From Cohnella algarum (GTDB lineage: Bacteria > Bacillota > Bacilli > Paenibacillales > Paenibacillaceae), in NCBI RefSeq assembly GCF_016937515.1, contig NZ_JAFHKM010000002.1, forward strand, positions 372,001 through 436,000: 64,000 nucleotides of DNA, given 5' to 3'. Positions 4,537-43,199 of the stretch are shown one piece after another (the first letter of the stretch is position 1; every line of letters starts with the position of its first letter). The translations under genes were made by a program, and so were the position numbers. Under the pieces are notes generated by a model, which saw only the letters and a program-made list of their open reading frames with translations, was not told where the DNA came from and ran no database searches.

Positions 4537-5373
4537 CTAGCCGAGTCCGCACAACGCCAAACTGCGTTCGTACAGCATCTCCTGCTGCTGTATATCATAG
4601 GAAAACGGTCCCGTTTGCTTTTTCGTTTCTCTGTTGTAATAGTGCCCCGTCGCGCCTTCAAGGGAGGGATCCATAGCCAGTCTCAGCGATGGCCGCGCCC
4701 CTTTTTCCGGAGCGGACATAAACAGCTTTAAGAGCGGCCGAAGAAAGGACGGCACCATTCGCGCAGATTGAGGCGTATAGATCACCCCGGGATGAACCGC
4801 GTTGACCGTTACGGCCGTGCCTGACAGCTTGCGGGCAAGCGCGTAAGTGAACATGACGACGGCCAGCTTGGCAGCGCGATAAACGTTCATTGCGCGATAG
4901 TCGCCGGGATCGATCAATTTCTCGAAATCCAGGCTTACGGCCTGCATTTCCGAAGCCACGTTTATAATGCGGGCGGGCGAACTTTTCTTCAGCGTTTCAA
5001 GCAAAAGCTGCGTCAAAAGAAACGGCGCATAATAGTTCAACGCAAAGGTCAGCTCCATTCCCTCCGCGTTTTTCCGATAATCTTTGAAAACGCCGCCGGC
5101 ATTATTGATCAGCACGTGCAGGTTGTCATGCCGGCTTAAATACTGGCTTGCCAAAGACCGGATGCCATCGCCGGCCGTCAGATCCGCCAGCAGCAATTCG
5201 ACCTTCCGGTTCCCGCTGAGCCGAATGACCTCCTCTCTGGCTTCCTCCCCGCGCTTTCGGTCCCTTGCCGTCATGACGACATGCGCCCCGGATTTCGCGA
5301 GTCCGAGAGCGGTTGCCTTGCCGATTCCCGAATTCGCTCCCGTTACGAGACAGATCTTCCCGGTCATGTCCAT
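4537..5373 (-). CDS. Short-chain dehydrogenase/reductase
   Basis: The 278-residue product is a classical SDR: the nucleotide-binding motif TGANSGIGKA lies near residue 11, NNAGG near 90, a catalytic serine in the NVASE region near 139 and YRAAK (YxxxK) near 164. The overall pattern resembles retinol dehydrogenase/WWOX-type members, which use NADP(H) on lipophilic alcohols or ketones; the substrate cannot be read from sequence. The ATG at 5373 follows GGGAGG; the longer frame adds 22 unlikely residues. It is a single gene with its own terminator. Confidence 0.85.
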   Translation of the reverse strand: MDMTGKICLVTGANSGIGKATALGLAKSGAHVVMTARDRKRGEEAREEVIRLSGNRKVELLLADLTAGDGIRSLASQYLSRHDNLHVLINNAGGVFKDYRKNAEGMELTFALNYYAPFLLTQLLLETLKKSSPARIINVASEMQAVSLDFEKLIDPGDYRAMNVYRAAKLAVVMFTYALARKLSGTAVTVNAVHPGVIYTPQSARMVPSFLRPLLKLFMSAPEKGARPSLRLAMDPSLEGATGHYYNRETKKQTGPFSYDIQQQEMLYERSLALCGLG

Positions 5374-8732: not shown

Positions 8733-8812
8733 ATCTTCCCCTCCCTCCTATCGTCCACCCATATTATATCCGTAATTACGAGTTTTGTCTGTCTATTTAG
8801 CACTATGATTTA

Positions 8813-8863
8813 TACTTATATAAGTACAAAATGCTTGACATTATACTTATATAAGTATATAAT
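8813..8863 (+). promoter_or_regulatory. Promoter 1 with two TACTTATATAAGTA operators
   Basis: TTGACA (8835-8840) and TATAAT (8858-8863) are exactly 17 bp apart. The spacer holds the perfect palindrome TACTTATATAAGTA (8844-8857), and a second perfect copy lies at 8813-8826, 31 bp upstream. A repressor on these sites would cover the whole promoter. The same design recurs at 9514-9565 and 10116-10144. Confidence 0.8.
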
Positions 8864-10576: not shown

Positions 10577-10849
10577 ATGAGCGTAAACGTTTATTTTCGG
10601 GGCATCAAAGCCCCGACCGAGGAGTATCGGAAGAAAGTCGCCGCCTACAAAGCTCTGGAAGATGCGGGCTTGGACATTCCGGAGGAGCTGCAGGAGTTTT
10701 TCGATTACGAAGAACCGGACGAATCCGGACAGACCGTCGAAATCGAGGAAGCCGAAGACGGTGACGTGATGGAAGATGGCGAGGTCACCATCGACCTTTC
10801 TAAGCTTCCTCCGGGGGTTACGCACATCAAGGCAATTTTGAGCTACTGA
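10577..10849 (+). CDS. Acidic hypothetical phage protein
   Basis: A 90-residue protein: a strand start (MSVNVYFRGIKAP), a helix (about 15-45), a very acidic stretch (about 48-78) and a final short domain (DLSKLPPGVTHIKAIL). The ATG at 10577 follows AGGAGG at 10563-10568. It is flanked by two hairpin-rich leaders. Not recognised. Confidence 0.65.
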   Translation: MSVNVYFRGIKAPTEEYRKKVAAYKALEDAGLDIPEELQEFFDYEEPDESGQTVEIEEAEDGDVMEDGEVTIDLSKLPPGVTHIKAILSY

Positions 10850-10861
10850 CAGGGCTAGGGA

Positions 10862-10928
10862 CTGTCCCGTGCAAGCCGGGACCGCCGGGCAACCGGCGCT
10901 CCGCTCAACCTGTCCGCAGGGCAGGAAT
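10862..10928 (+). other. Three-hairpin leader before the Csx16-like gene
   Basis: Three perfect stems follow one another: GTCCCG-TGCAAGC-CGGGAC, CGCCGG-GCAA-CCGGCG (a GNRA-type loop) and CCTG-TCCG-CAGG. The element ends about 25 bp before the Csx16-like start codon. The layout resembles the leader at 10423-10510, although the bases differ. It may regulate the gene below or be a small RNA. Confidence 0.4.
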
Positions 10929-10952: not shown

Positions 10953-11498
10953 ATGAAACTCTCTCAACTGCTCGCATCCAAAAAAGTCGTCGCTTCCGGT
11001 TTCGCCGCCATCTCGGGGCTGTCCACACACTCCCTCGGAACCGAGGAGGCTGTCCTGTCGTCGCTCGCGCCGTCGGTGCTGGCGGAGCAAGGCGTGGCGG
11101 AATATTACGCGCTGCAACTGGCGCGCGGGACCGTCTACAACACGACGGAGGAGATCGTCGCAGCGGATCCGGATGTCCGGCGCTATGTGATTCTGGCGAT
11201 CGACAACACATACGGCGCCGACGTGGTTATCGTCTCGCGGCATGCCGGTACGGTCGCCCTGCTGCTTGAACGCTACCCAGGCGCTGACGTGCTGGAATCC
11301 GTGACGGCTGACCAAATCGCCGGCAAGCACGTCGTCGGCACGTTACCGCCATATCTCATCACCGCTGCGGACGCGTACACGGCCGTCACCATCCGCGGGT
11401 TTGACCACACAAAGGACGGCGACCTGGCAGGTGACGAGCTGGCGGAGCGGATCGTCATCGCGGACAAGCCGCTGCGGGTTGTCGAGCTGCCTGCATAA
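10953..11498 (+). CDS. Csx16-like protein, candidate phage ring nuclease
   Basis: The 181-residue product has an unassigned N-terminal half (1-88) and a C-terminal half that follows the Csx16 (VVA1548) pattern: VSRHAG at 94-99, a hydrophobic helix, DQIAGKHVVGTLPPYL at 120-135 and GDLAGDELAER at 156-166. Known Csx16 proteins belong to type III CRISPR loci, and members of the group degrade cyclic oligoadenylate. A phage copy would switch off the type III alarm signal. The match is by eye; the usual HLSLD-like stretch between the last two blocks is poorly kept. TTGGAGG lies 11 bp before the ATG, and the hairpin leader precedes it. Confidence 0.55.
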   Translation: MKLSQLLASKKVVASGFAAISGLSTHSLGTEEAVLSSLAPSVLAEQGVAEYYALQLARGTVYNTTEEIVAADPDVRRYVILAIDNTYGADVVIVSRHAGTVALLLERYPGADVLESVTADQIAGKHVVGTLPPYLITAADAYTAVTIRGFDHTKDGDLAGDELAERIVIADKPLRVVELPA

Positions 11499-11984: not shown

Positions 11985-12263
11985 ATGAAACAAAATCATA
12001 AATCGATAGGTCAGCGCTTAAAAAGGGCTCAATCGCCGGAGTCCAAAAAGGCAATCGCCCTTGATTGGGCGCAGAACTGGAAAGAGGATCACGACGAGCT
12101 TATCCGCAACCTCGAGCGGGCCATACGCACCAACGACTATGATCTGCTCTGCATCGCGACAGGACAGTTAAAAGCCGTCGGACAAAAGCGATTTGACGCC
12201 CTCCCGCGAGTTTTATCCCATCTTGCCGAGGCGGCGGCGCCCGAGCCTGAAAGCGTGGATTGA
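11985..12263 (+). CDS. Helical hypothetical protein
   Basis: A 92-residue, basic-then-acidic helical protein starting MKQNHKSIGQRLKRAQSP. GGAGATGAGACGGG precedes the ATG. It is followed after one base by the zinc-finger gene, so three small genes (11985, 12265, 12521) form one operon. Function unknown. Confidence 0.6.
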   Translation: MKQNHKSIGQRLKRAQSPESKKAIALDWAQNWKEDHDELIRNLERAIRTNDYDLLCIATGQLKAVGQKRFDALPRVLSHLAEAAAPEPESVD

Positions 12264-12264
12264 A

Positions 12265-12540
12265 ATGAAAACGCGAGTTTGCAAATCCAATTCCTGCGAT
12301 AAATCGTTTATCCCATTACGGGACGATCATTATTTCTGCTCTGATCGATGTCGGTACCGGGATCACAAGGCCCACAAGCGGGCATCGAATAAACGCGCCG
12401 GGAATTGTCCGCAATGCGGCAACGTATGGATCGAACCGCGAATGACACGCCGGGGCAAGCCGGAGCATTGCCTGCGGTGCCAGGACTATTATGCCCGGCG
12501 ACACAAGGAGATGACGCACCTTGAGCAGGCTCAGGCGTAA
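12265..12540 (+). CDS. Small zinc-finger protein
   Basis: A 91-residue protein with two groups of possible zinc ligands: CKSNSC...CSDRC (residues 4-28) and CPQCGNVW...CLRCQDYY (about 45-70), with a basic linker between. Such double zinc ribbons bind nucleic acid or act as small adaptors. The ATG at 12265 overlaps the previous gene end almost exactly. It is translated just before the 66-residue zinc-ribbon gene, with which it overlaps by 20 bases. Confidence 0.6.
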   Translation: MKTRVCKSNSCDKSFIPLRDDHYFCSDRCRYRDHKAHKRASNKRAGNCPQCGNVWIEPRMTRRGKPEHCLRCQDYYARRHKEMTHLEQAQA

Positions 12541-12721
12541 TGCGGTACGATGCCTTCGGTGCGGGGATGTCGTCGACTCCACATCGTTGCACCAGATTGC
12601 CCGCTGCAACTGCGGCGCGGTGACCGTCGATGGCGGCCTTGAATACGCCAAACGTATATGGGTTGGTGGGCTTCCGGAAGAAATCTTCGAAGAATTATCC
12701 GAGTACGAAAAAGAGCAGTGA
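12521..12721 (+). CDS. Small zinc-ribbon protein
   Basis: A 66-residue protein with CLRCGD (11-16) and CNCGAV (29-34) knuckles, then a short strand and an acidic helix. The start is TTG at 12521, 9-10 bases after AAGGAGATG. This kind of two-knuckle protein is common in Paenibacillus prophages and of unknown role. The stop lies inside the hairpin of the following bidirectional terminator. Confidence 0.6.
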   Translation: MSRLRRNAVRCLRCGDVVDSTSLHQIARCNCGAVTVDGGLEYAKRIWVGGLPEEIFEELSEYEKEQ

Positions 12722-12744
12722 CCCCGAAAGGCCGCTGCTCTTTT
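12708..12744. terminator. Bidirectional terminator shared with the repeat RNA
   Basis: The stem gagcag (12713-12718) / ctgctc (12735-12740), extended by further pairs, is followed by TTTT on the plus strand and TTTTT on the minus strand. It ends the zinc-ribbon operon from the left and the CRISPR-repeat-like transcript from the right. Confidence 0.8.
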
Positions 12745-12764
12745 GAAATGACTTGAAAAAAATT

Positions 12765-12797
12765 ATTTCAATCCACACGGTTTTTAGCCGTGAATAC
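12765..12797 (-). repeat. Type I-C-like CRISPR repeat, degenerate (second in the RNA)
   Basis: On the minus strand: GTATT, then stem CACGG-CTAAAAA-CCGTG, then the handle TGGATTGAAAT. The last 11 bases are the same as the 5' handle left by Cas5d on typical type I-C repeats; the hairpin sequence differs from common repeats but keeps its position. Confidence 0.65.
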
Positions 12798-12813
12798 ACT
12801 TAATAAATTATAT

Positions 12814-12845
12814 GCTTCAATCCACACCCGCTCACCACGGGCGAC
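12814..12845 (-). repeat. Type I-C-like CRISPR repeat (first in the RNA)
   Basis: On the minus strand this 32-nt unit begins GTCGC, has the stem CCCG-TGGTGAG-CGGG and ends TGTGGATTGAAGC. Length, first five bases, hairpin position and the GTGGATTGAA ending all follow the Bacillus type I-C repeat family. Confidence 0.7.
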
Positions 12846-12853
12846 CTACCTGT

Positions 12854-12882
12854 AGAATATCCCATTAGTTATATTTTGTCAA
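12854..12882 (-). promoter_or_regulatory. Sigma-A promoter of the repeat RNA
   Basis: TTGACA (12877-12882) and TATTCT (12854-12859) on the minus strand are exactly 17 bp apart. The predicted start point is two bases before the first CRISPR-like repeat. Confidence 0.75.
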
Positions 12883-12937
12883 CCCGAGTTGGGTATTGAG
12901 CCTGTCCCGCATGAGAAACGTAGAATGGGGTGGTATT

Positions 12938-13390
12938 ATGGGAATCGAAAAGGTACCTCAGGAGATTAGAGACAAGCTTCAAAAGCTTTTTAACGAGTAT
13001 GGCCTGAACGAGGGATATCTTTATGTTGACCTAAGTTCAGGCGACGTTGAACTGCGTACGAATAAAGCCTCGCCTGAAGATTTAAGGTTGGCGAAAATCA
13101 TAGCAGGCATCTATGCAGAGAGGGACCCCGAAAATATTGAGAAGATCGTATTGTTCGGGTCACGAGCTCGCGGGGATTCAGGCGCCAGCAGCGACTTTGA
13201 TATCCTTATTTTAGTGCAAGAGGATAGTAAAGATATTCGGTCAAACATACGAGCGGGAAGACGGCACTCAAGTAAATTTCCTATAGTTGATCTAGACTTG
13301 ATTATTTGTACGGATGAAGATTTCAAAAAGTCCAAGATTTATGAAAGTGTTTTGAAGGAAGGGATCCTGTTATATCAGCGTGGCAATTAG
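12938..13390 (+). CDS. MNT-type nucleotidyltransferase without a HEPN partner
   Basis: A 150-residue protein with the minimal nucleotidyltransferase core: FGSRARGDSGASSDFDILI gives the GS and DxD motifs (about residues 72-90), and DLDLII near 124 gives the third acidic residue, so the catalytic set is complete. In MntA-HepT modules the MNT protein AMPylates a HEPN RNase toxin; no HEPN gene is next to it here. The GGGGTGG before the ATG at 12938 sets the start. The DNA is more AT-rich than its neighbours, which suggests a recent acquisition. Confidence 0.75.
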   Translation: MGIEKVPQEIRDKLQKLFNEYGLNEGYLYVDLSSGDVELRTNKASPEDLRLAKIIAGIYAERDPENIEKIVLFGSRARGDSGASSDFDILILVQEDSKDIRSNIRAGRRHSSKFPIVDLDLIICTDEDFKKSKIYESVLKEGILLYQRGN

Positions 13391-13503: not shown

Positions 13504-14460
13504 ATGAAGCGCTGGAAAATTGCCATTTTATCTGTTATTGTCGCGCTTTTCTCTGCAACCGTCACAAACGCCGCTCCGAAGATTTCACTCATAGTCAACG
13601 GCAAGACGTCAACAGCCGAAGTCAAAGCTATCGACGGAACTACGTATGTCCCACTCCGCGCAGCTGCTGAATTACTCGGAGCGGATGTAAATTATGTAAC
13701 CAGCACAAAAACGGTCGTAATTACCTCGAAAGGTGCTCAACAAACCGCAACCCCGACGATCGAAAAAACGTCGAAAATGACGCTTGTCGTCAACGGCACA
13801 ATCGCCAAGGTTGAGCCAAAAGTGATGAGCAACACGACGTACGTTCCCGTACGCGCGGCGTCTGAGCTTTTGGGCGCAGACGTCAAATATGACCCGAAGA
13901 CTTACACGGTCACGATTACCCAAGGCGAGATTACATACGACGTTACCATCACGTTCCCCGCAGACCGCTATCCTGAAACGGCGGCCCACATTAAAGCAGC
14001 GATTGCAAAAGGTGAATCCGCGGTCTGTACAATCGATCGCGACGGCGCAGATGAAAACCGAGAAGAGTCCTTAAAGGGAATACCGACAAAGGACGGATAC
14101 GATCGGGACGAATGGCCAATGGCCATGTGTGCCGAGGGCGGTACCGGCGCGGATGTCGCTTACGTTGAGTCGTCCGACAACCGCGGCGCGGGTGCCTGGG
14201 TCGGAAATGCACTTGAGGAGTATCCGGACGGTACCCGTGTTTTGTTCGTGATATCCGGAGGAGCAGGGACGACGACCAACCAGCCGGAAACATCGACGGG
14301 TAATGATCCGAGTGAACCAACAAATCAACAATCTGGAACTGTAGTTTACGAAACGTGCAAAGCTGCCAGAGAAGCTGGAGCAGCTCCGCTGTACGTTGGC
14401 GATCCTGGATACAGCAAAAAGTTAGACCGCGATGGTGACGGTGTCGCGTGCGAATCATAA
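13504..14460 (+). CDS. Secreted NucA/NucB-like DNase with stalk and Excalibur domains
   Basis: The 318-residue product has a signal peptide (1-24), two copper-amine-oxidase-type stalk repeats (about 27-76 and 92-137, each with TTYVPxRAAxELLGADV), a NucA/NucB-type DNase domain (about 145-250; [31 protein letters not shown]) and a C-terminal Excalibur calcium-binding motif ([11 protein letters not shown]). It should be exported and degrade extracellular DNA, perhaps while held at the wall by the stalk repeats. GGGAGG precedes the ATG, and it is monocistronic with a strong terminator. It is unusual as prophage cargo. Confidence 0.8.
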
Positions 14461-15810: not shown

Positions 15811-16443
15811 TTAATAAAAATCATTCTTATTTGTCTTTAGTTCCATCTCCAGCGCGTGCCTATCTATTTCTGAATAAATCTCGTTTTTTTCTTCCTCTAA
15901 TGCTAATAATTCAGCGCTATAACAGTCATAGCAGTCATCGGGGGGGTCGCATTTAACTATTCCTCCGTGTTTCTTTGAAGGGTAAAGATTATGATCTGGA
16001 TCCAACCATACTATGTAAAATACGTTGTCAATTAAAAATCCGTGTACCCTTCCTCTTGCAGTAGACAATGCAAATTGATATGCGTCGTTTTCAATTTGTT
16101 TAAAAAGTTCATCATTAAGAGGAAATTTTGCACTCACATGATCCCAATTATGGGGATGAACTCTTAACGGTTTATGGCGATGAACTTTAAATTCTACTAC
16201 TTTCATTCCCGAGACTTTTTTCATGGTCTCTAAACAATTGAGAAGCCATCCTTGATCAGCATTTCCACAATTAAAATACTTATGTTCACGATCAAAAAAT
16301 TGCCACGAAAATATTACATTTTCTTCAGCGTATCTGTTCAATGTCTTTTGAGCTGATTCTGAAAATAAAGACCCCATCTTTTTAGAAGGGGCCTCCGGTC
16401 TAGGTATAGAAAATCCTTTGTGCTCCCTTTTAGGATTAGGCAT
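15811..16443 (-). CDS. Putative toxin partner of the Panacea protein
   Basis: A 210-residue protein starting at the ATG at 16443, overlapping the Panacea gene by 8 bases. It contains HRHKPLRVHPHNWDHVS and ARGRVHGFLIDNVFYIVW-LDPDHNLYP segments, a strand-rich pattern often seen in small toxins that are fused or paired with antitoxins; I cannot name the family with confidence. Panacea antitoxins neutralise many unrelated toxins encoded next to them, so the partner position is the main argument. Confidence 0.5.
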   Translation of the reverse strand: MPNPKREHKGFSIPRPEAPSKKMGSLFSESAQKTLNRYAEENVIFSWQFFDREHKYFNCGNADQGWLLNCLETMKKVSGMKVVEFKVHRHKPLRVHPHNWDHVSAKFPLNDELFKQIENDAYQFALSTARGRVHGFLIDNVFYIVWLDPDHNLYPSKKHGGIVKCDPPDDCYDCYSAELLALEEEKNEIYSEIDRHALEMELKTNKNDFY

Positions 16444-16921
16444 TTCCCAATTCCATCCTAACCTGTTCAATAATATCCTTATCTTTAATCGGTGAATTTG
16501 ATGCTTGGAAAGGTTGAAGACCAGCTCTTGCCCTTTTCCAAGGAATTTGATCATGAGTTAAGGCTTCAAGTTCATCAGCATCCAAGTGGCCGTAAGATTC
16601 GTAAAGCGATTCAAGGAATTCATATACCTCTGCATCATTTGTTATTACATTTGGGACGGTAGCCTCACGTGGGATAGCCGACCACCCAAATTCTTTGTAA
16701 GTGTGGTAAAGGCTCGGATCAACTGGCCCATGCACCCATGCCTGAAACCTATTGTCAAAGAGTGGTTTTTCGAAATAGTATAGGTACCAAGAGTAAGCGT
16801 AGAAGCAAAGCTTCTGAAGTTTTTTTGGAGACATTGATTCCATGTTTAAGAACGTTTTTGCCACATCGTGAATGGTGACCATTTTCCTCACCCTTCTTTT
16901 AAAATCTATAATGACTCCCAT
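16436..16921 (-). CDS. Panacea-domain (SocA/DUF4065) antitoxin-like protein
   Basis: The 161-residue product shows the Panacea pattern: SPKKLQKLCFYAYSWYLYY near residue 30, a short FQAWVHGPVDPSLYHTYK segment and LTHDQIPWKRARAGL near the end. Such proteins act as antitoxins or as adaptors to proteases. The ATG at 16921 follows AGGAGTGGTGAG. It is the first gene of a two-gene AT-rich minus-strand unit, placed between the ligase and the lysis genes, a usual place for lysogenic cargo. Confidence 0.75.
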   Translation of the reverse strand: MGVIIDFKRRVRKMVTIHDVAKTFLNMESMSPKKLQKLCFYAYSWYLYYFEKPLFDNRFQAWVHGPVDPSLYHTYKEFGWSAIPREATVPNVITNDAEVYEFLESLYESYGHLDADELEALTHDQIPWKRARAGLQPFQASNSPIKDKDIIEQVRMELGNA

Positions 16922-17186
16922 GATCTCACCACTCCTTAAATTTGGATTGCTACATTCATTACCCAAATTAAATAAGGATATTCTGGTTAGATCAAAACAA
17001 GAGGTTAAAACTAATTTGATTCCATAATACACCAACGTAATGTCGAATGTTGTCGTAATTTGTCTTTATTGATTAATTTTTTATTCCCACAGCAAAAATT
17101 TATAGAACATCCTTGTAGGTCAAAGTCCCCAATATTGGCACCTCGTACAATCTAACTCATATATCAGTGGCATTCGTTTGACAAAT

Positions 17187-18754: not shown

Positions 18755-21247
18755 TTACCAAAATGCGTACCATGTGAATGTCTGTCCGACCAGTTCCGAC
18801 CATGTGCCAACCGGTATCCGGAACGGGGTAGGACCTCCCAATATACCATCATCTGCAAAAGGACCGGAGAAATGCATCGACGTCCCGAAAGTCCCGGTGT
18901 CCCTCGCGGTTTTGGTACAAAATGCTATCTGGCCATAGGAAAGTCCGCTCGTGTTGGGCAAAGTAGTTCCCATTGATATACCAGATGAATAGACGACGTT
19001 GTATAGCCAGCCGTTGGGGTGATTACAATAGCCAACGATCAACCTCGGAAGTCCTATGTCAGTACGGACATTACCCTCGATATAATAGGAGTCGTACACA
19101 TAGCTACCAGGGTAATTGGAGAACCCATATACCCTGATAGTGGCATTCGGCACCCCCGACGATCCACTCTGCCTCAGGGAGGTGAGGTTGCCGACGATCC
19201 TCTGTCCGTTTGTGTAGCCGACCCTGCCGTTCAGTATGTCGCCCGCGCCAACATTCCCGTCACTCGTGAATGTGCCTGCGACCCCTCCGACCGTCACCCC
19301 TGCTTTGATATTGCCCGCAGCCAGATTACTAACCCCAGCAACCGTACCACCACTCGTGTATCCCGCTGGGATGGACTGAGCGTTCGGACCGGGCGTGAAG
19401 GACAGGGAACCATTGTTCGGCATCGTGCCTGTCACAAGTCCGTTCTGGGTGCCGATCGTTTTCCCGGCCAGTACGTCAGCAGCTACTGCCGTGCCATACT
19501 CACCCCCTTCACCCTGCAAGATAAAATTTGTGCCATCGTAGACCAGCGTATAAACGCCGCCCGACTTGAGGAATCCTGACGGCGGCGCGGTACCGTCTAC
19601 CCGCCGAATCGCCTTGGCCCCGAGGCTGTTGACGTTGATCGTCGGGTTTGCACCGTTGGCCGCATTGAGCTTAACCGATATCCTCATGCCCATCGTGAGT
19701 TCCGTGGGAGCCGGGCTGAGAGACACCGTGTAGGCCGTCCCGGTCCCGGCCGTCGTGCCATACCCGATCGACTTCATGGCAACCTCGTTCACAGCGCTGA
19801 CGAGCGAGTTTTTGTTGGTCGTTAATAACGCCGAACGGGCCCCCACCTCTCCCGTTACGTACGCTGTATTTGCGATTTGTTGGGAGTCGCTTCCGGGCGA
19901 GGCAGTATTCACCGTAGGCTCCCCCGGCAGGAAGATATTCGCCTCCGGGAGTGCAGTCGAATCCGTCGTATAGACGGGGCTGAGTTGAGAACCGAGAAGG
20001 TTTTGCTGCCCTCCCGAACCATTAGCGTACCCTCTGACATGAACATCGATCGGACTGTTTGTGGTTATGTTGGATATACCTATCTTAATTCTCCATCGGG
20101 AATTTGCCGTGTCATATTCTACATCCCCAATGGATATATAGAGACGGGCTGCTCCGAGCGCTTCCACGTAACGCGAGCCTTGGTAAGCGATGGTAGAAGC
20201 CCCCGAGGTCGCAACAACAATACGCTTAACCACCCTACCGGTCAGATTCCCGGTATTCCACGCGCTTGTAACCTCGACGTCTATATATCCTTGAATGCCG
20301 CCTGTCCAATAAAGGTCGAACTTCTTATTGGTCTGATCCGTGGTGTGAGTTCCACGCCCGACGTACTTTTCGAAATAGAACGAACTAAGCTCACGGAACG
20401 TCGCCGCTCTTACCGAGTTCGCCGACACTGGACCGGAGAAGGTTACGGCCCCAGTGTTCCTGTTGATGGTAAACGGCATCGCCCTGTACGATCCGTCATC
20501 GTTGTATGACCAAATCGAAAAGTTAGAACCGGAATTATCGCCGTTTTCGATGCCATTAAGGCCAATATTGAACCTAATTTGTTCGCCAGAATGCAAGCCC
20601 AGGTGTTGTGACCCTGATCCGCTTGTTCCGGCATTAGTCATGATTCTAGCAAACGTCGGGCTTGCCATCGTTCTTACGTCTTGGTTCGTACGCGCATCTA
20701 AGGCCGCCTGCACTGCATCAACTTCTGCTTTGCGCGCGATGTCGTCCGTCGCGGCCGGAGCTGCCACCTTGGCCCGGCCGGAAGCGTCGCGCTGCATAAT
20801 CGTGTTGGACGTCGCCGCTGCCGTCGCGCCATGCGCTCCGGTCGTCGTATCCATATGCCCCTTGGCCGCCTCCAACGTCGTGGCCGGAGCCGTCCGCCAG
20901 TTGCTTTTGCCTGTGATCGCCTTGATCATGTAGGCCAGCCAGCTCAGTAGACTGGTCAGCGTCCCAGTGTTCCCGGTCGGCGCGGTCGTGTCCGAGACCG
21001 TCCGGTTGCCAATGACCGCATCCGTAGCCGACCCCGCGCTGCCGGCGCCCGAGGTGATCCCGTCGAGCTTCCCTTTGTCGGCAGCGCTCATGAAGCCTGC
21101 GGACGATGTTGTCGCTGCCGCGTGGGCGGCTCCGCCGGCGCCAATATGGTTTTCCAGGCTCTCCGCGTTATCGTTAATCTCTTGGCCGATCTGGTTCATG
21201 TCCTCCGGCTTGACGGTGTCGCCCATCGTCCAGTTTGTTTTTGCCAT
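18755..21247 (-). CDS. Tail fibre / receptor-binding protein
   Basis: An 830-residue protein typical of a tail fibre: a conserved N-terminus that attaches to the baseplate (WTMGDTVKPEDMNQIGQEIN), then a long shaft with Ala/Thr/Gly-rich repeats, a middle part with NTGAVTFSGPV-type fibre signatures, repeated YTNGQRIVGNLT/GLVTGTMP units (about 580-700) and a C-terminal beta-rich tip. It is placed last of the structural genes, before lysis, and probably decides host range. No reverse transcriptase or variable-repeat pair was seen. Confidence 0.85.
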   Translation of the reverse strand: MAKTNWTMGDTVKPEDMNQIGQEINDNAESLENHIGAGGAAHAAATTSSAGFMSAADKGKLDGITSGAGSAGSATDAVIGNRTVSDTTAPTGNTGTLTSLLSWLAYMIKAITGKSNWRTAPATTLEAAKGHMDTTTGAHGATAAATSNTIMQRDASGRAKVAAPAATDDIARKAEVDAVQAALDARTNQDVRTMASPTFARIMTNAGTSGSGSQHLGLHSGEQIRFNIGLNGIENGDNSGSNFSIWSYNDDGSYRAMPFTINRNTGAVTFSGPVSANSVRAATFRELSSFYFEKYVGRGTHTTDQTNKKFDLYWTGGIQGYIDVEVTSAWNTGNLTGRVVKRIVVATSGASTIAYQGSRYVEALGAARLYISIGDVEYDTANSRWRIKIGISNITTNSPIDVHVRGYANGSGGQQNLLGSQLSPVYTTDSTALPEANIFLPGEPTVNTASPGSDSQQIANTAYVTGEVGARSALLTTNKNSLVSAVNEVAMKSIGYGTTAGTGTAYTVSLSPAPTELTMGMRISVKLNAANGANPTINVNSLGAKAIRRVDGTAPPSGFLKSGGVYTLVYDGTNFILQGEGGEYGTAVAADVLAGKTIGTQNGLVTGTMPNNGSLSFTPGPNAQSIPAGYTSGGTVAGVSNLAAGNIKAGVTVGGVAGTFTSDGNVGAGDILNGRVGYTNGQRIVGNLTSLRQSGSSGVPNATIRVYGFSNYPGSYVYDSYYIEGNVRTDIGLPRLIVGYCNHPNGWLYNVVYSSGISMGTTLPNTSGLSYGQIAFCTKTARDTGTFGTSMHFSGPFADDGILGGPTPFRIPVGTWSELVGQTFTWYAFW

Positions 21248-23190: not shown

Positions 23191-23563
23191 TGACGCTCGT
23201 GCTCCTTTCTACTCGGATCGAGCCAAAAATCGTAACAACCGTAAAAGTAACGACGGCCGTGTCGCCGGCCCCGATGGTAACCTCAAAATCCTCGACGGCC
23301 GTAATCCGGTCGTCCTGAAGCAGCGCATCGGTGACGAGATTCTGAATTTCGCTCGCCGGCCCGCGAATTCGGCCGTACGAGTCATTGTAAATCAAGAATG
23401 CGAATCGCTCGGTGTCGACGATTTTGTACACCGCCTGCTTGACGGCATCAACCCCGTCGGTCATGCCCGCGATCCGCCCCTTGTCGAAATCGATCCGGTA
23501 CGTATGGCTCGTTTGGACCGTGTCCTCCGTTACCGGCGTGGCCCCTGCTGGCAATATGCTCAT
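23183..23563 (-). CDS. DUF2634/XkdS-like baseplate protein
   Basis: A 126-residue protein: TYRIDFDKGRIAGMTDGVDAVKQAVYKI in outline, then FAFLIYNDSYGRI and a C-terminal strand pair. This matches the XkdS/gp25-like wedge protein with lysozyme-like fold seen in PBSX. Its ATG overlaps the expected stop of the upstream DUF2577 gene (ATGA) once that gene's frameshift is corrected. Confidence 0.85.
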   Translation of the reverse strand: MSILPAGATPVTEDTVQTSHTYRIDFDKGRIAGMTDGVDAVKQAVYKIVDTERFAFLIYNDSYGRIRGPASEIQNLVTDALLQDDRITAVEDFEVTIGAGDTAVVTFTVVTIFGSIRVERSTSVNV

Positions 23564-27256: not shown

Positions 27257-29641
27257 TCAAAGCCCGTACACGGTCCGCGCGGTCGACTCGATTTCCTGTG
27301 ACATCCTGCGCTCGAGCTGCGCGATCATATCGTCGACGTCGACATCTTGGGTGATCGGGCCGGTCGTGACCTCGAGCGTCGGCGTCAGCGTGACAAAATT
27401 TTGAATCGCCTGCATCTCCGCCAAATCCCGCATGACCTTGAGGTCCTCGCTGGAAATGTCGACGGTGTCCTTGATCTTGCCGACCTCGCCCACTTTGCCG
27501 ACCGAATCAATCGATCCCACGTTTTTGGCGAATTTGTCGAAATCGTATTTCGAATCCTCTTCCGCGGCTTCTCTTGCGGCCTTCTCCGCCTCTTCCCTTG
27601 CACGTTTAGCTGCGCGGTTGTCCAGCATGTCCTGTACCTTCAATTCCCGTTCGGCGGCTTTTTGGGCCGCGCTCGCGCGCATTTCGGCAACCTTCTCTTC
27701 GCCGGCCTGCTTAATGGCTTCAGCCTCAGCTGCTGCCTTCGCCGCGAATCCTAACGATTCGACGGCCTTTAATTCGACGCCCGGAATCGTGTTAAGCTTC
27801 TCAATCAGCCAGTTAATGCCGTCGATGACCCCGTTGACGAGATCCTCCATAATCTGCAACGACTCTGCTTTTGCCCATAGAAAAGCATTAATGATTCCGT
27901 TGCCGACGATTTGAAAAAAGATCGGAACCTGGTCAAAGAAATTGAGAATCGTATTCCAGACCCTCATGAGCCCGGCCGCGAATTGATCGTTGGTCTGCCA
28001 CAACTTGATGAGCCAAACGATGAGCCCCGCGATGACCGTGATCAAAAACACCATCACGTTGGCACGCTGAGCTGCGTTAAGCCCCAGCCACGCAGTACGC
28101 AGGCCAAACACGGCGGCCGTCTGTGCAAAGGTAGCCGCGGTCGTGATGCCGGATTGCACGGCCAGCACGCCCTGCATGATCGCTTGACGCTGCGTCATAA
28201 TCAACCAGGCCAACATCGCCGCGGTGATCCCCCACAAAATAGGCTCAATCGTCGGCCAGTTGGTCGACATAAAACCGTAAACGTTGGACGCCGCAGTCAG
28301 GAGCCAGTTCGCCGCGTCCGCTGCCGTGCCGAACGCCGATTTAATCCCGGCCACAAACTGCTGGCCAGTTGGGCTATTGAGCATGCTATTAATCCGCTCG
28401 ATGACCGGGCCGAATTCCTGCAAGGCGGAATTACCGATTTCATTGGCGACATCCCCGAAGGTCTTCGGCATCGTTTCCAGCTTTGCGTTGATGTCGTCAG
28501 CCGCCGAAAACATGGCCCCTTTGATGATGTCAGCCGTGATCGTCCCTTCCGCCGACATCTCCTTGAGATCCCCCATCGACTTGCCCGTAAAATCAGCAAT
28601 CGCCTGGGCGAGCATGGGGGCGTTTTCCATGATCGATCGAAACTCGTCGCCCTGCAACCGGCCCGCGGCCATCGCTTGCGAGAGCTGGTACATGCCGGCC
28701 TGCTGCTCCATCGTGGACGCCCCGCTGACCCGGAATGATTTTTGCATGAGCTCCGCAAACGCGACGAGCTCCTCGTTGCTTCGAAAAGCATCCCGGGCGA
28801 GTGTCCCCATCCGTCCGATTACGCCCGCCATGTCGCTGTAGCTTCCGCGGGCACGGTCGGCAGCCTCGAAGATGTCTTGCTGCAGCTCCTTGGTGGTCTG
28901 CAACCCGTCGTTGATGAGCTCGATCCGGGCGAGCGAGTTGATAAAATCGTCGCTGACCTGCGTCGCGGCTTGGAATCCGCGTACCGCCATGCCGATCAGT
29001 TCGAAGGCAAAATAGATCGATCCGAGCGTTTCGACCCAGCCGCTCAGCGCACTTCTTCCGGAGCGTACATTCTGGTTGATGCGGCTCTGCTGGTTGGCCG
29101 CCTGGCTAAGGTGATGATTGGTCTGGTTGAGGGTCTGATTGATCTGCACGTAATTGTTGTTGATGACCTGCGTGACGCGGACAACCTGCTGATTGAGCTG
29201 CAACATCCTCTGCTGGTTATGGACAGTGTTCGCAGGTACGGTTAACGCCGTGCTGCTTCCCCCTGTACCGGTCGCTCCGTGTGCCGTTGTGCTCGGTGTA
29301 CGATTCCGCATCGTTTGATTGAGACGAGCGATGGATGATGTAAATTTATCCACGCGATTCGTTGTCAAATCAATCATCCTCGCCAAATCGCCCCACGAGG
29401 TCAGCACTCGGTTCTGCGGATTGACCTGATCGACGCTGCTTGTTGCTCCAATATCAATCACCTGATTGCTCGGGTCAGGTACCGGAGCCGCGGGAACGGA
29501 TGGTCCTCTTGCGCCCGTGCCCCCCATCACGCGGTTAACGCGCTCCGCGGAGGCGATCAGCCTATCCATGCGTTCGTTGATGCGGTCTATCGTTCCCGAC
29601 ATGGAATCCATCATCCGCAACGTGGTGGATATGGTCGGCAT
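27257..29641 (-). CDS. Tail tape measure protein
   Basis: A 794-residue protein with a long helical N-terminus (linkers rich in Gln/Asn, NQINQNVR-like), a tape measure core (LARDAFRSNEELVAFAELMQKSF, GDEFRSIMENAPMLAQAIADFTG, DLKEMSAEGTIT; about 330-440), three membrane-like segments (about 480-600) and a coiled-coil, Lys/Glu-rich end. It sets tail length and is ejected during infection. It follows the frameshifted chaperone genes, as is usual. Confidence 0.9.
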   Translation of the reverse strand: MPTISTTLRMMDSMSGTIDRINERMDRLIASAERVNRVMGGTGARGPSVPAAPVPDPSNQVIDIGATSSVDQVNPQNRVLTSWGDLARMIDLTTNRVDKFTSSIARLNQTMRNRTPSTTAHGATGTGGSSTALTVPANTVHNQQRMLQLNQQVVRVTQVINNNYVQINQTLNQTNHHLSQAANQQSRINQNVRSGRSALSGWVETLGSIYFAFELIGMAVRGFQAATQVSDDFINSLARIELINDGLQTTKELQQDIFEAADRARGSYSDMAGVIGRMGTLARDAFRSNEELVAFAELMQKSFRVSGASTMEQQAGMYQLSQAMAAGRLQGDEFRSIMENAPMLAQAIADFTGKSMGDLKEMSAEGTITADIIKGAMFSAADDINAKLETMPKTFGDVANEIGNSALQEFGPVIERINSMLNSPTGQQFVAGIKSAFGTAADAANWLLTAASNVYGFMSTNWPTIEPILWGITAAMLAWLIMTQRQAIMQGVLAVQSGITTAATFAQTAAVFGLRTAWLGLNAAQRANVMVFLITVIAGLIVWLIKLWQTNDQFAAGLMRVWNTILNFFDQVPIFFQIVGNGIINAFLWAKAESLQIMEDLVNGVIDGINWLIEKLNTIPGVELKAVESLGFAAKAAAEAEAIKQAGEEKVAEMRASAAQKAAERELKVQDMLDNRAAKRAREEAEKAAREAAEEDSKYDFDKFAKNVGSIDSVGKVGEVGKIKDTVDISSEDLKVMRDLAEMQAIQNFVTLTPTLEVTTGPITQDVDVDDMIAQLERRMSQEIESTARTVYGL

Positions 29642-41900: not shown

Positions 41901-43199
41901 CTATTTGGCATCCGGGAAGTAGACGCCGCGCTTACGTTTGACAACGCTGCGAACGAAATAGCGATCGCCGTCCATCTGGTGGTCGTTATCCTTGACCGGC
42001 TTGTCCTCGCCGCGCTGTGCGGCCTTCTCGTCCCAAACGTAGGACGAATATTCGCGAAACGTCTCCTGGCAGCAGTCGTTGTATTTGATCAGACCCTCGA
42101 CGAGCGAGGAAGCGACGTCCCGGATCCCGTTGATCACGTCGTTGTCGGCCTTGATTACCCGCAGCCCGCCGCGCTTTTTGACCGCCGTAATGAAAGAAGC
42201 CGCCGAGGGGTCAATGATCACACCCCGAACCGACAGCTTCCCAACAAACTCGATCAAATCGTCGCAGTATTCCTCGTCCGTCTTTTGGCGGCTTTTGGCT
42301 CGGCCGTCGTAATGATACTCCTTGACCTTGTACCAGACGCCCTTGTGCAGGCCCCAGAGTCCGAACGTCATCGGGTTTTGTGTACCGTAGTCGCAGCTCA
42401 CATAGTATTGCTGGTAGGGCCGATCCTCTGTCCGTACGACATGCTTGCCGCCAACTTCTGGGTCGAACATGTCGTAAATTAGGCCCTCTGCCATCACCCA
42501 CAACCCGAGGATGTATCGCTTGAAGAAGATCCCGCTGTACATCCGCCGGTAGCGTTCTTTCACGCGCTCCGATAGCGACGGATTGTCGTCCATCGTGAAA
42601 TGGAGATGCAAGGCGTGCTTCTGGCGGAGCTGGTCGAGCCATTCGAGCTTGAACCAGTGGTAGGGCCCTGCAGGGTTACAGTTGAACCAAAGCTTCGCCC
42701 CGTCCACCGAACACCGCGCCGTCGCCTGATTGACGAAGCTTTTTGGCATCAGCGCGACCTCGTCGAAAAACATGCCAGCCAGCGTGATCCCTTGGATGAG
42801 ATCCTGAGAACGTTCGTCCTTTCCGCCAAAAAGATAAAAGTCGTTGATCTTACCGCCCCGGATGACCGTCAGGAAGTTCTCCGAGCGGTGATCTTCGACC
42901 TGGTATCCTCTGCCGATGAGCATTTGCTTCAGCGGCCCAATGACGTTACGGCGAAGCGCGCCGATCGTCTTGCCGGCCATCCCAAGCTGCTGCCCGTTAA
43001 ACGTCTCCATCGCCCATACGATAAAACTGAACGACATTGACGCGGTTTTCCCGGCGCGCACCGAGCCGTCGCAGATCAGTGCATCCTTGTCATGATGCGG
43101 GCTTTCCGGCATCCACCAAGTAAGCACTTGGAACTGTTTGGCGCTGAACGGCTGCCATCGGAAGGTCGGTTTAATTCTCCGGATCGTCCGATTCGCCAT
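41901..43199 (-). CDS. terL: Terminase large subunit
   Basis: A 432-residue packaging motor. Walker A-like GSVRAGKTASMSFSF lies near residue 45, Walker B-like GMFFDEVALMP near 138, and the nuclease domain acidic residues are in YVSCDYGTQNP (about 268) and GVIIDPSAASF (about 340). I chose the ATG at 43199, 7 bases after GGAGGGC. The small subunit gene is 175 bp upstream. Confidence 0.92.
   Translation of the reverse strand: MANRTIRRIKPTFRWQPFSAKQFQVLTWWMPESPHHDKDALICDGSVRAGKTASMSFSFIVWAMETFNGQQLGMAGKTIGALRRNVIGPLKQMLIGRGYQVEDHRSENFLTVIRGGKINDFYLFGGKDERSQDLIQGITLAGMFFDEVALMPKSFVNQATARCSVDGAKLWFNCNPAGPYHWFKLEWLDQLRQKHALHLHFTMDDNPSLSERVKERYRRMYSGIFFKRYILGLWVMAEGLIYDMFDPEVGGKHVVRTEDRPYQQYYVSCDYGTQNPMTFGLWGLHKGVWYKVKEYHYDGRAKSRQKTDEEYCDDLIEFVGKLSVRGVIIDPSAASFITAVKKRGGLRVIKADNDVINGIRDVASSLVEGLIKYNDCCQETFREYSSYVWDEKAAQRGEDKPVKDNDHQMDGDRYFVRSVVKRKRGVYFPDAK

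Follow-up and report, generated by a model that had tools for sequence, protein, structure and literature searches.

The accessory end of a Cohnella algarum prophage carries a compact minus-strand element (12882-12708 of the window, the whole stretch of 64,000 nucleotides that was analysed), which we take, with moderate confidence, for the gene of a small RNA that mimics the repeats of type I-C CRISPR arrays and serves the prophage as an RNA anti-CRISPR of the Racr kind. A preliminary description had proposed such a reading, and its core idea is the best one available: the mimicry of I-C repeats in a I-C host and the self-targeting spacers speak for it, while the assignment to the solitary-repeat class was abandoned because the element consists of two diverged repeats. 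That description had missed a neighbouring MNT gene, which is kin to the MNT-HEPN pair of the host CRISPR locus, a Csx16-type gene and the self-targeting spacers themselves, and the link with an antitoxin constitutes the more unusual part of the case.

All the parts described earlier (promoter, repeats, handle and terminator) were found in place on the minus strand. The element begins with a promoter-like site TTGACA-17-TATTCT (12854-12882), which has 10 of the 12 consensus bases and from whose placement a transcription start is predicted at about 12849-12845. Repeat 1 (32 nt, 12814-12845) starts with GTCGC and forms a hairpin of 6-7 bp followed by the handle TGGATTGAAGC at 12824-12814. Repeat 2 (12765-12796) forms a hairpin of 5 bp and ends with the exact host handle TGGATTGAAAT at 12775-12765; its hairpin had been called altered, and its stem sequence is indeed unlike that of repeat 1. 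In both units the 3' side of the hairpin abuts the handle, and the two repeats are identical in 20 of 35 alignment columns. They are separated by an AT-rich spacer (12797-12813) containing TATAAT, which is short, as first reported, but does not have the 16 nt given for it: its length is 17 nt by the 32-nt repeat count, or 19 nt if repeat 2 begins two bases before its stem, like the host repeats. The element is closed by an intrinsic terminator hairpin (12709-12744) of -21.4 kcal/mol, with a z of -5.1 and equalled by 0 of 200 shuffles. This hairpin overlaps the end of a DUF7695 gene (12721, plus strand) and is perhaps bidirectional, in which case it may be used from both sides.

The folding of the element was compared with that of shuffled sequences. 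Taken alone, repeat 1 gave a hairpin abutting TGGATTGAAGC with an energy of -11.3 kcal/mol, equalled by 3 of 200 shuffles, and repeat 2 a weak hairpin of -5.8 kcal/mol, equalled by 13 of 200. The centroid structure of the whole transcript retains both hairpins; in the minimum free energy (MFE) structure, which represents 1.2% of the ensemble, the handle of repeat 1 is paired elsewhere. The sequence TGGATTGAA is present in 3 copies in the window for 0.65 expected, a number reached by 1 of 100 shuffles. In the window, two hairpin-handle units lie at a distance of 49 nt from each other. Among 60 Markov sequences, each 64 kb long and with the dinucleotide make-up of the window, there were 32 handles, none of them with an abutting hairpin of at least 5 bp, and no pair. 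Because neither promoters (3 vs 2.0 ± 1.6) nor terminators (1 vs 1.4 ± 1.3) are more numerous in the region than in shuffles, these two signals count only by their placement. At the element, none of the Rfam families attained its gathering score. At 12253-12266 (plus strand), 0.5 kb from the element, GCGTGGATTGAAAT is a 14-nt exact match to the end of the host repeat, located at the stop/start junction of two phage ORFs, and is perhaps a third relic; no hairpin was found at the corresponding handle (12256, plus strand), which was left out of the unit count.

The 6.2-Mb genome to which the window belongs has a complete type I-C operon, with cas3, cas5d, cas8c, cas7, cas4, cas1 and cas2 as open frames. 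Its I-C locus contains two arrays, with 35 repeats of 33 nt bearing the same handle as the element and 33 spacers of 33-38 nt. The I-C repeat architecture first attributed to the element was recovered in both of its units, and the complete I-C system of the genome uses the same handle. The likeness to I-C repeats, assessed on those of the host itself, held for the handle and the hairpin register, and was limited over the whole repeat, the global identity to the best host repeat being only 26/36 columns for repeat 1 and 23/37 for repeat 2. Both values are below the 90% identity to a known repeat asked by SRUFinder. Counting from the handle, most host repeats have A-T at the fourth pair of the stem, and the fifth pair of host repeats is T-A or T-G; at both positions repeat 1 has C-G and repeat 2 has G-C. 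The handle is hardly changed across all these repeats. A kept handle together with two-sided stem changes is what would be expected from selection for binding of the repeat nuclease; according to the relevant part of a review, cutting by the Cas5d of type I-C results in a 5' handle of 11 nt and a 3' hairpin handle of 21 nt (PMC5965380). The genome has a second CRISPR region (2.852-2.875 Mb), which adjoins type III genes (RAMP proteins, Cas10 palm) and whose repeats nearly all end in TGGATTGAAAC. Between two arrays of this region, MntA and HepT domains are fused in one open frame (L050:13980-14786; 2.862 Mb).

The prophage itself is recognizable by families for baseplate, tape measure, head, portal, terminase, primase and helicase at 22-52 kb. 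A DprA gene at 3.5-4.7 kb suggests that the host chromosome lies to the left, and the element is found in the accessory end, beyond an amidase gene at 17-18 kb. No cas gene other than the Csx16-type one was seen among the window proteins scanned, in agreement with the absence noted earlier. We compared with the window 111 host spacers, of which the I-C locus contributed 33 and the second region 78, the latter including 14 from an array at 2.8737-2.8748 Mb. Five of the 111 match the prophage at 28/34 or better, and three of these five protospacers, all on the minus strand, are flanked by TTC, used as I-C PAM in the portion of PMC10810201 consulted: a 32/32 match at 23285-23316, a 33/34 match at 19087-19120 and a 30/34 match at 13584-13617. 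The other two are on the plus strand, a 31/33 match at 41991-42023 with the upstream triplet ATC and a weak 28/34 match at 28466-28499 with the upstream triplet CTT. All five spacers come from the second region, beside type III genes and from arrays with the handle GAAAC or GAAAT, and none of the 33 spacers of the I-C locus matches the window. The 32/32 and 33/34 protospacers have the orientation of minus-strand phage ORFs, which makes pairing of a type III guide with the corresponding mRNA impossible; DNA targeting by I-C appears to be the likelier use of these two spacers, and the remaining three matches could fit either system or be decayed. Cas5d and the I-C system would then make use of the second-region arrays. 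A lysogen with open cas genes should not survive unless its I-C system is inhibited or silent, and from the spacer matches and the open I-C cas genes an I-C inhibitor is expected. Self-targeting is a usual sign of an anti-CRISPR and does not say which gene is responsible.

Divergent from the element is a gene for an antitoxin-type MNT nucleotidyltransferase (12938-13390, plus strand; PF18765, PF01909) with an intact GSx10DxD motif. It is preceded by a decayed I-C repeat and a ribosome-binding site (12893-12937, plus strand), a stretch identical at 30 of 45 positions to one of the host CRISPR locus; within the 36 nt before the ribosome-binding site 21 match the host locus, and 0 of 20000 random places in the window do as well. 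The homology with the host locus stops near the end of MNT. Its counterpart there belongs to an MNT-HEPN pair (L009:16436-16882 and 16033-16446), located between the larger I-C array and cas3 and with decayed I-C repeats, read by eye, before and after it. The phage and host MNT are 86% identical in protein over 148 residues and 88.7% in DNA, with a dN of 0.068, a dS of 0.36 and a ratio of about 0.19, which indicates that the protein was kept under selection since the copies parted. The decayed repeat before the phage gene suggests that MNT may have moved from a CRISPR locus into the phage. In the host pair (L009:16033-17060; 751 kb) the repeat preceding MNT extends over the ribosome-binding site of the gene, and Cas5d might cut or mask the antitoxin mRNA via that repeat.

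The window yielded no HEPN partner (best tblastn E 0.87); the genome has a single HEPN domain of the PF05168 kind, which lies at the cas locus. In 2020, Songailiene reportedly associated HEPN-MNT with a cyanobacterial I-D CRISPR locus. MNT proteins are described as disarming HEPN toxins by nucleotide transfer (in the available part of PMC11586414). The toxicity of the host HEPN is nevertheless uncertain because, in HEPN of the PF05168 kind, the catalytic H of Rx4-6H is replaced in several cases among those covered by the consulted text of PMC3710099. When solved structures were compared, HEPN had no match and MNT 3 weak ones. The neighbour recalls the HEPN-MNT (type VII) systems by its GSx10DxD motif and by its 86% homologue in an MNT-HEPN pair, and differs from them in that the phage MNT is an orphan.

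A Csx16-type gene (10953-11498, plus strand; PF09652, below the Pfam cut-off) is located 1.2 kb upstream, in the same neighbourhood as the element and MNT. It encodes a candidate ring nuclease with an extra N-terminal part. The precomputed PF09652 domain is present in 23 of the 28 listed proteins, the window protein included, and the relatives comprise a named Csx16 of Paenibacillus medicaginis as well as a Bacillus phage protein; tblastn in phage records gave no match, even though that Bacillus phage protein is among the listed relatives, and no solved structure matched. As far as the examined text of PMC12409355 goes, Csx16 degrades cA4 and is present in 2 of 28,114 phage genomes. The protein of this prophage is, from its domain, a candidate viral ring nuclease against type III CRISPR, whose genes the host carries. 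Just upstream of its gene, at 10847-10917 (plus strand), is a twister-sister ribozyme (RF02681, 50.4 bits), the sole Rfam match.

An RNA anti-CRISPR with this anatomy could work as follows. Transcription from at or a few bases before repeat 1 to the terminator would give an RNA of ~140 nt, in which the host Cas5d would recognise the two hairpin-handle units and cut each of them just 3' of the stem. This cutting would release crRNA-like pieces with a proper 5' handle and a guide of only ~19-20 nt, which would occupy Cas5d, and probably Cas7, in shortened and useless complexes. Few Cascades would be left with real guides, and the prophage would be tolerated in a host with matching spacers. At the same time, the phage MNT, present without a toxin, would keep the host HEPN modified and harmless. 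Arguing for an RNA anti-CRISPR are the absence of the hairpin-handle pair from the 60 random windows, the complete host I-C system with its 35 same-handle repeats, the two-sided stem differences with a kept handle, the five spacer matches (three with TTC), the short-spaced I-C doubles of other viral contigs, the MNT and Csx16-type neighbours and, by analogy, the published I-C Racr, which inhibits I-C immunity according to the accessible part of PMC10651486. On the other side are the weak hairpin of repeat 2, the MFE structure of the whole RNA, which competes with the handle of repeat 1, the location of all the matching spacers in arrays by type III genes and the two protospacers of five without TTC; in addition, the prophage could be tolerated because of a protein Acr encoded elsewhere or because I-C is silent.

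We also envisage, tentatively and as something on the doubtful side, that the RNA and the antitoxin form a matched pair, in which the RNA would disable the I-C Cascade and MNT would be the antidote to a HEPN guard kept in the same CRISPR locus. To disable CRISPR and nothing else would set the toxin free or favour it; a phage would therefore have taken from such a locus the antitoxin without its toxin, and an island that also contains the Csx16-type gene would answer I-C, the guard and type III together.

Other explanations do not involve inhibition by the element. It could be a fragment of the CRISPR locus carried along with the MNT gene and without function, as the kinship of MNT and of its decayed upstream repeat with that locus would allow, decayed repeats being visible by eye in the host too. 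We find such a passive relic unlikely, considering that the handles are kept while the stems differ by two-sided changes, that a promoter-like site is present at the right distance with a terminator after, that the element is opposite in direction to MNT, unlike the host locus, and that similar short-spaced units exist in other viral contigs. Nor does the tolerance of self-targeting need the element, which might be inert or of minor effect if I-C is silent or is blocked by a protein Acr that went unseen; the I-C self-targeting of Xanthomonas albilineans, for instance, was traced to AcrIC11, as reported in the part of PMC10810201 at hand. This would leave the repeat mimicry unexplained, and appears quite improbable to us. 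No known Acr model (NCBIfam) was found among the 10 accessory ORFs scanned, which weighs little against a protein Acr because, to our knowledge, most Acrs are not covered by such profile models.

In layout, the chief rival is CreA (of CreTA / CrePA), in which a crRNA-like guide with a short spacer would send Cascade to a promoter of the phage, of the MNT-HEPN pair or of the cas genes and repress it through seed pairing. Two differing, degenerate repeats around one spacer, a guide-like stretch and an adjoining toxin-antitoxin gene correspond to the creA layout as published (consulted part of PMC8501985), and the TATAAT within the spacer fits as well; the element differs by its location in a phage, by an antitoxin-type neighbour without toxin and by the lack of a TTC-flanked seed target. 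In the 6.2-Mb genome, there are 0 sites with TTC followed by spacer positions 1-5 and 7-11; the two best TTC sites have one seed mismatch, and sites with at most 2 mismatches number 51, vs 35 for the reversed pattern. When the 18-nt spacer was sought in its own genome with up to 3 mismatches, nothing besides itself had fewer than 2, and its match to the operator-like phage sites at 8841, 9543 and 10122 (up to 15/20) was equalled by 101 of 200 shuffled spacers. Nor did the sequence following repeat 2 have an exact TTC and seed site in the genome; its one-mismatch sites number 19 vs 6 for the control, one of them at prophage position 16090 inside an ORF. PAMs besides TTC (NTC, NTT) were scanned in the window and the cas locus, and a CreA-like guide may have a non-TTC PAM or a target on another phage, but we hold regulation of this type to be decidedly unlikely. 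Very improbable, finally, is a mini-array whose spacer would serve, with host Cas proteins, in competition against other phages. Viral mini-arrays with such use are known, and they too are repeats without cas genes in a viral genome; however, those presented in the available text of PMC11656645 have repeats identical to those of the host and spacers mostly directed against related viruses, and the element has neither. Its spacer is 17-19 nt long for 33-38 nt in the arrays of the host I-C locus, its repeats are not identical to the host repeat and no phage record matched it.

The RNA anti-CRISPR that we favour is related to, and distinct from, the Racr already published. In the sections of PMC10651486 that were available, Racr is defined as a solitary repeat unit with no second repeat within 100 bp, and RacrIC1, from a Bifidobacterium pseudocatenulatum prophage, was shown to inhibit I-C. 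Like RacrIC1, the element is a phage-encoded mimic of I-C repeats, located in a prophage beside other counter-defence genes; like Racr in general, it is encoded on the virus outside cas loci and mimics a repeat subtype present in the host. It is not solitary, however, but made of two diverged units 49 nt apart with a short spacer. According to the same sections, RacrIC1 shares a transcript with an acrIC5 homologue located 11 nt upstream of it, whereas the element has its own promoter-like site, and RacrIF1 works via a product without 5' handle (PMC10651486), whereas both products of the element would keep theirs.

Searches for relatives of the element and its neighbours covered genomes, viral contigs and proteins. 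The element DNA had 0 matches in phage records and was found in 1 of 37 genus genomes, its own. For MNT, no other family genome gave a match at E 1e-15 (1 of 394, its own with both copies), the search of 5.8 billion proteins (E 1e-5, shared short words being needed) returned only its own two copies, and 0 relatives were confirmed among 70 + 6 candidate stretches in genome_contigs and viral_contigs. MNT and the element are each confined to their own genome, among the 394 family and the 37 genus genomes respectively, so that the RNA anti-CRISPR reading draws no support from conservation. The gene preceding the element has relatives in 14 of 394 genomes; when 18 loci (~3 kb) of these relatives were inspected, handles were present in two, its own and L035, the latter with one handle.

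When IMG/VR was scanned for pairs of GTGGATTGAA handles at a distance of 22-50 nt, 33 pairs in 30 stretches were obtained, 4 of these 33 pairs having hairpins of at least 4 bp at both units (L071, L075, L079 and L084). In L071, L079 and L084 the two hairpin units have no further handles within 400 bases, and L075, with four further handles nearby, was set aside as a longer array. L063, with a 3 bp hairpin at its first unit, and L073, with a hairpin only at the second, were retained for inspection. All remaining pairs were discarded by eye because one or both units lack a hairpin, and some of them are perhaps coding repeats. On the reverse strand of L063 (IMGVR_UViG_3300050645_000051, ~5060-5300) there are three diverged I-C units with stems of 3, 6 and 6 bp and AT-rich gaps of about 19 and 31 nt, behind a TTGACA and a TATAAT that are 15 nt apart by eye. 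Comparison with PHROGs identified tail and lysis families in L079 and, strongly, one family of unknown function in L063. No MNT or HEPN was found by tblastn (E 1) beside L063, L071, L073, L079 or L084. Short-spaced I-C doubles therefore recur in viral contigs, with only one case so far of a link with MNT. The pattern scan of genomes gave at least 80 loci and at least 124 pairs; among the matches listed, both hairpins are present in 61 of 124 pairs, and the only both-hairpin pairs without a further handle within 400 bases are L135 and L140. Among the papers listed by the literature searches, judged by titles and the beginnings of abstracts, none describes a phage I-C repeat double with MNT.

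If the element is an RNA anti-CRISPR, then RNA anti-CRISPRs also exist as compact multi-repeat genes, a form with two units that SRUFinder, by its rules, should miss or discard, and phages couple them with antitoxins common to the CRISPR locus. If the matched-pair idea is also true, the MNT-HEPN pairs embedded in CRISPR loci would stand guard against anti-CRISPRs, and an MNT gene orphaned in a phage would mark an anti-CRISPR locus. An orphan MNT, decayed repeats and self-targeting spacers found together would then be a possible signature of anti-CRISPR islands. Because the host, the prophage, the matching spacers and both MNT copies share one genome, the case is testable, and it is open to a direct test of HEPN-MNT guarding CRISPR immunity.

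The accessory end of the prophage presents some further features. The near-perfect palindrome TATACTTATATAAGTATA occurs at 8841, 9543 and 10122 (and at 8810 and 9511). At three small accessory genes it overlaps the -10 region that follows TTGAC, and it looks like a shared operator. A gene with a Panacea/SocA-like antitoxin domain (PF13274) is located at 16436-17035 on the minus strand, and adjoining it, at 15811-16554, is a protein weakly like MAG6450.
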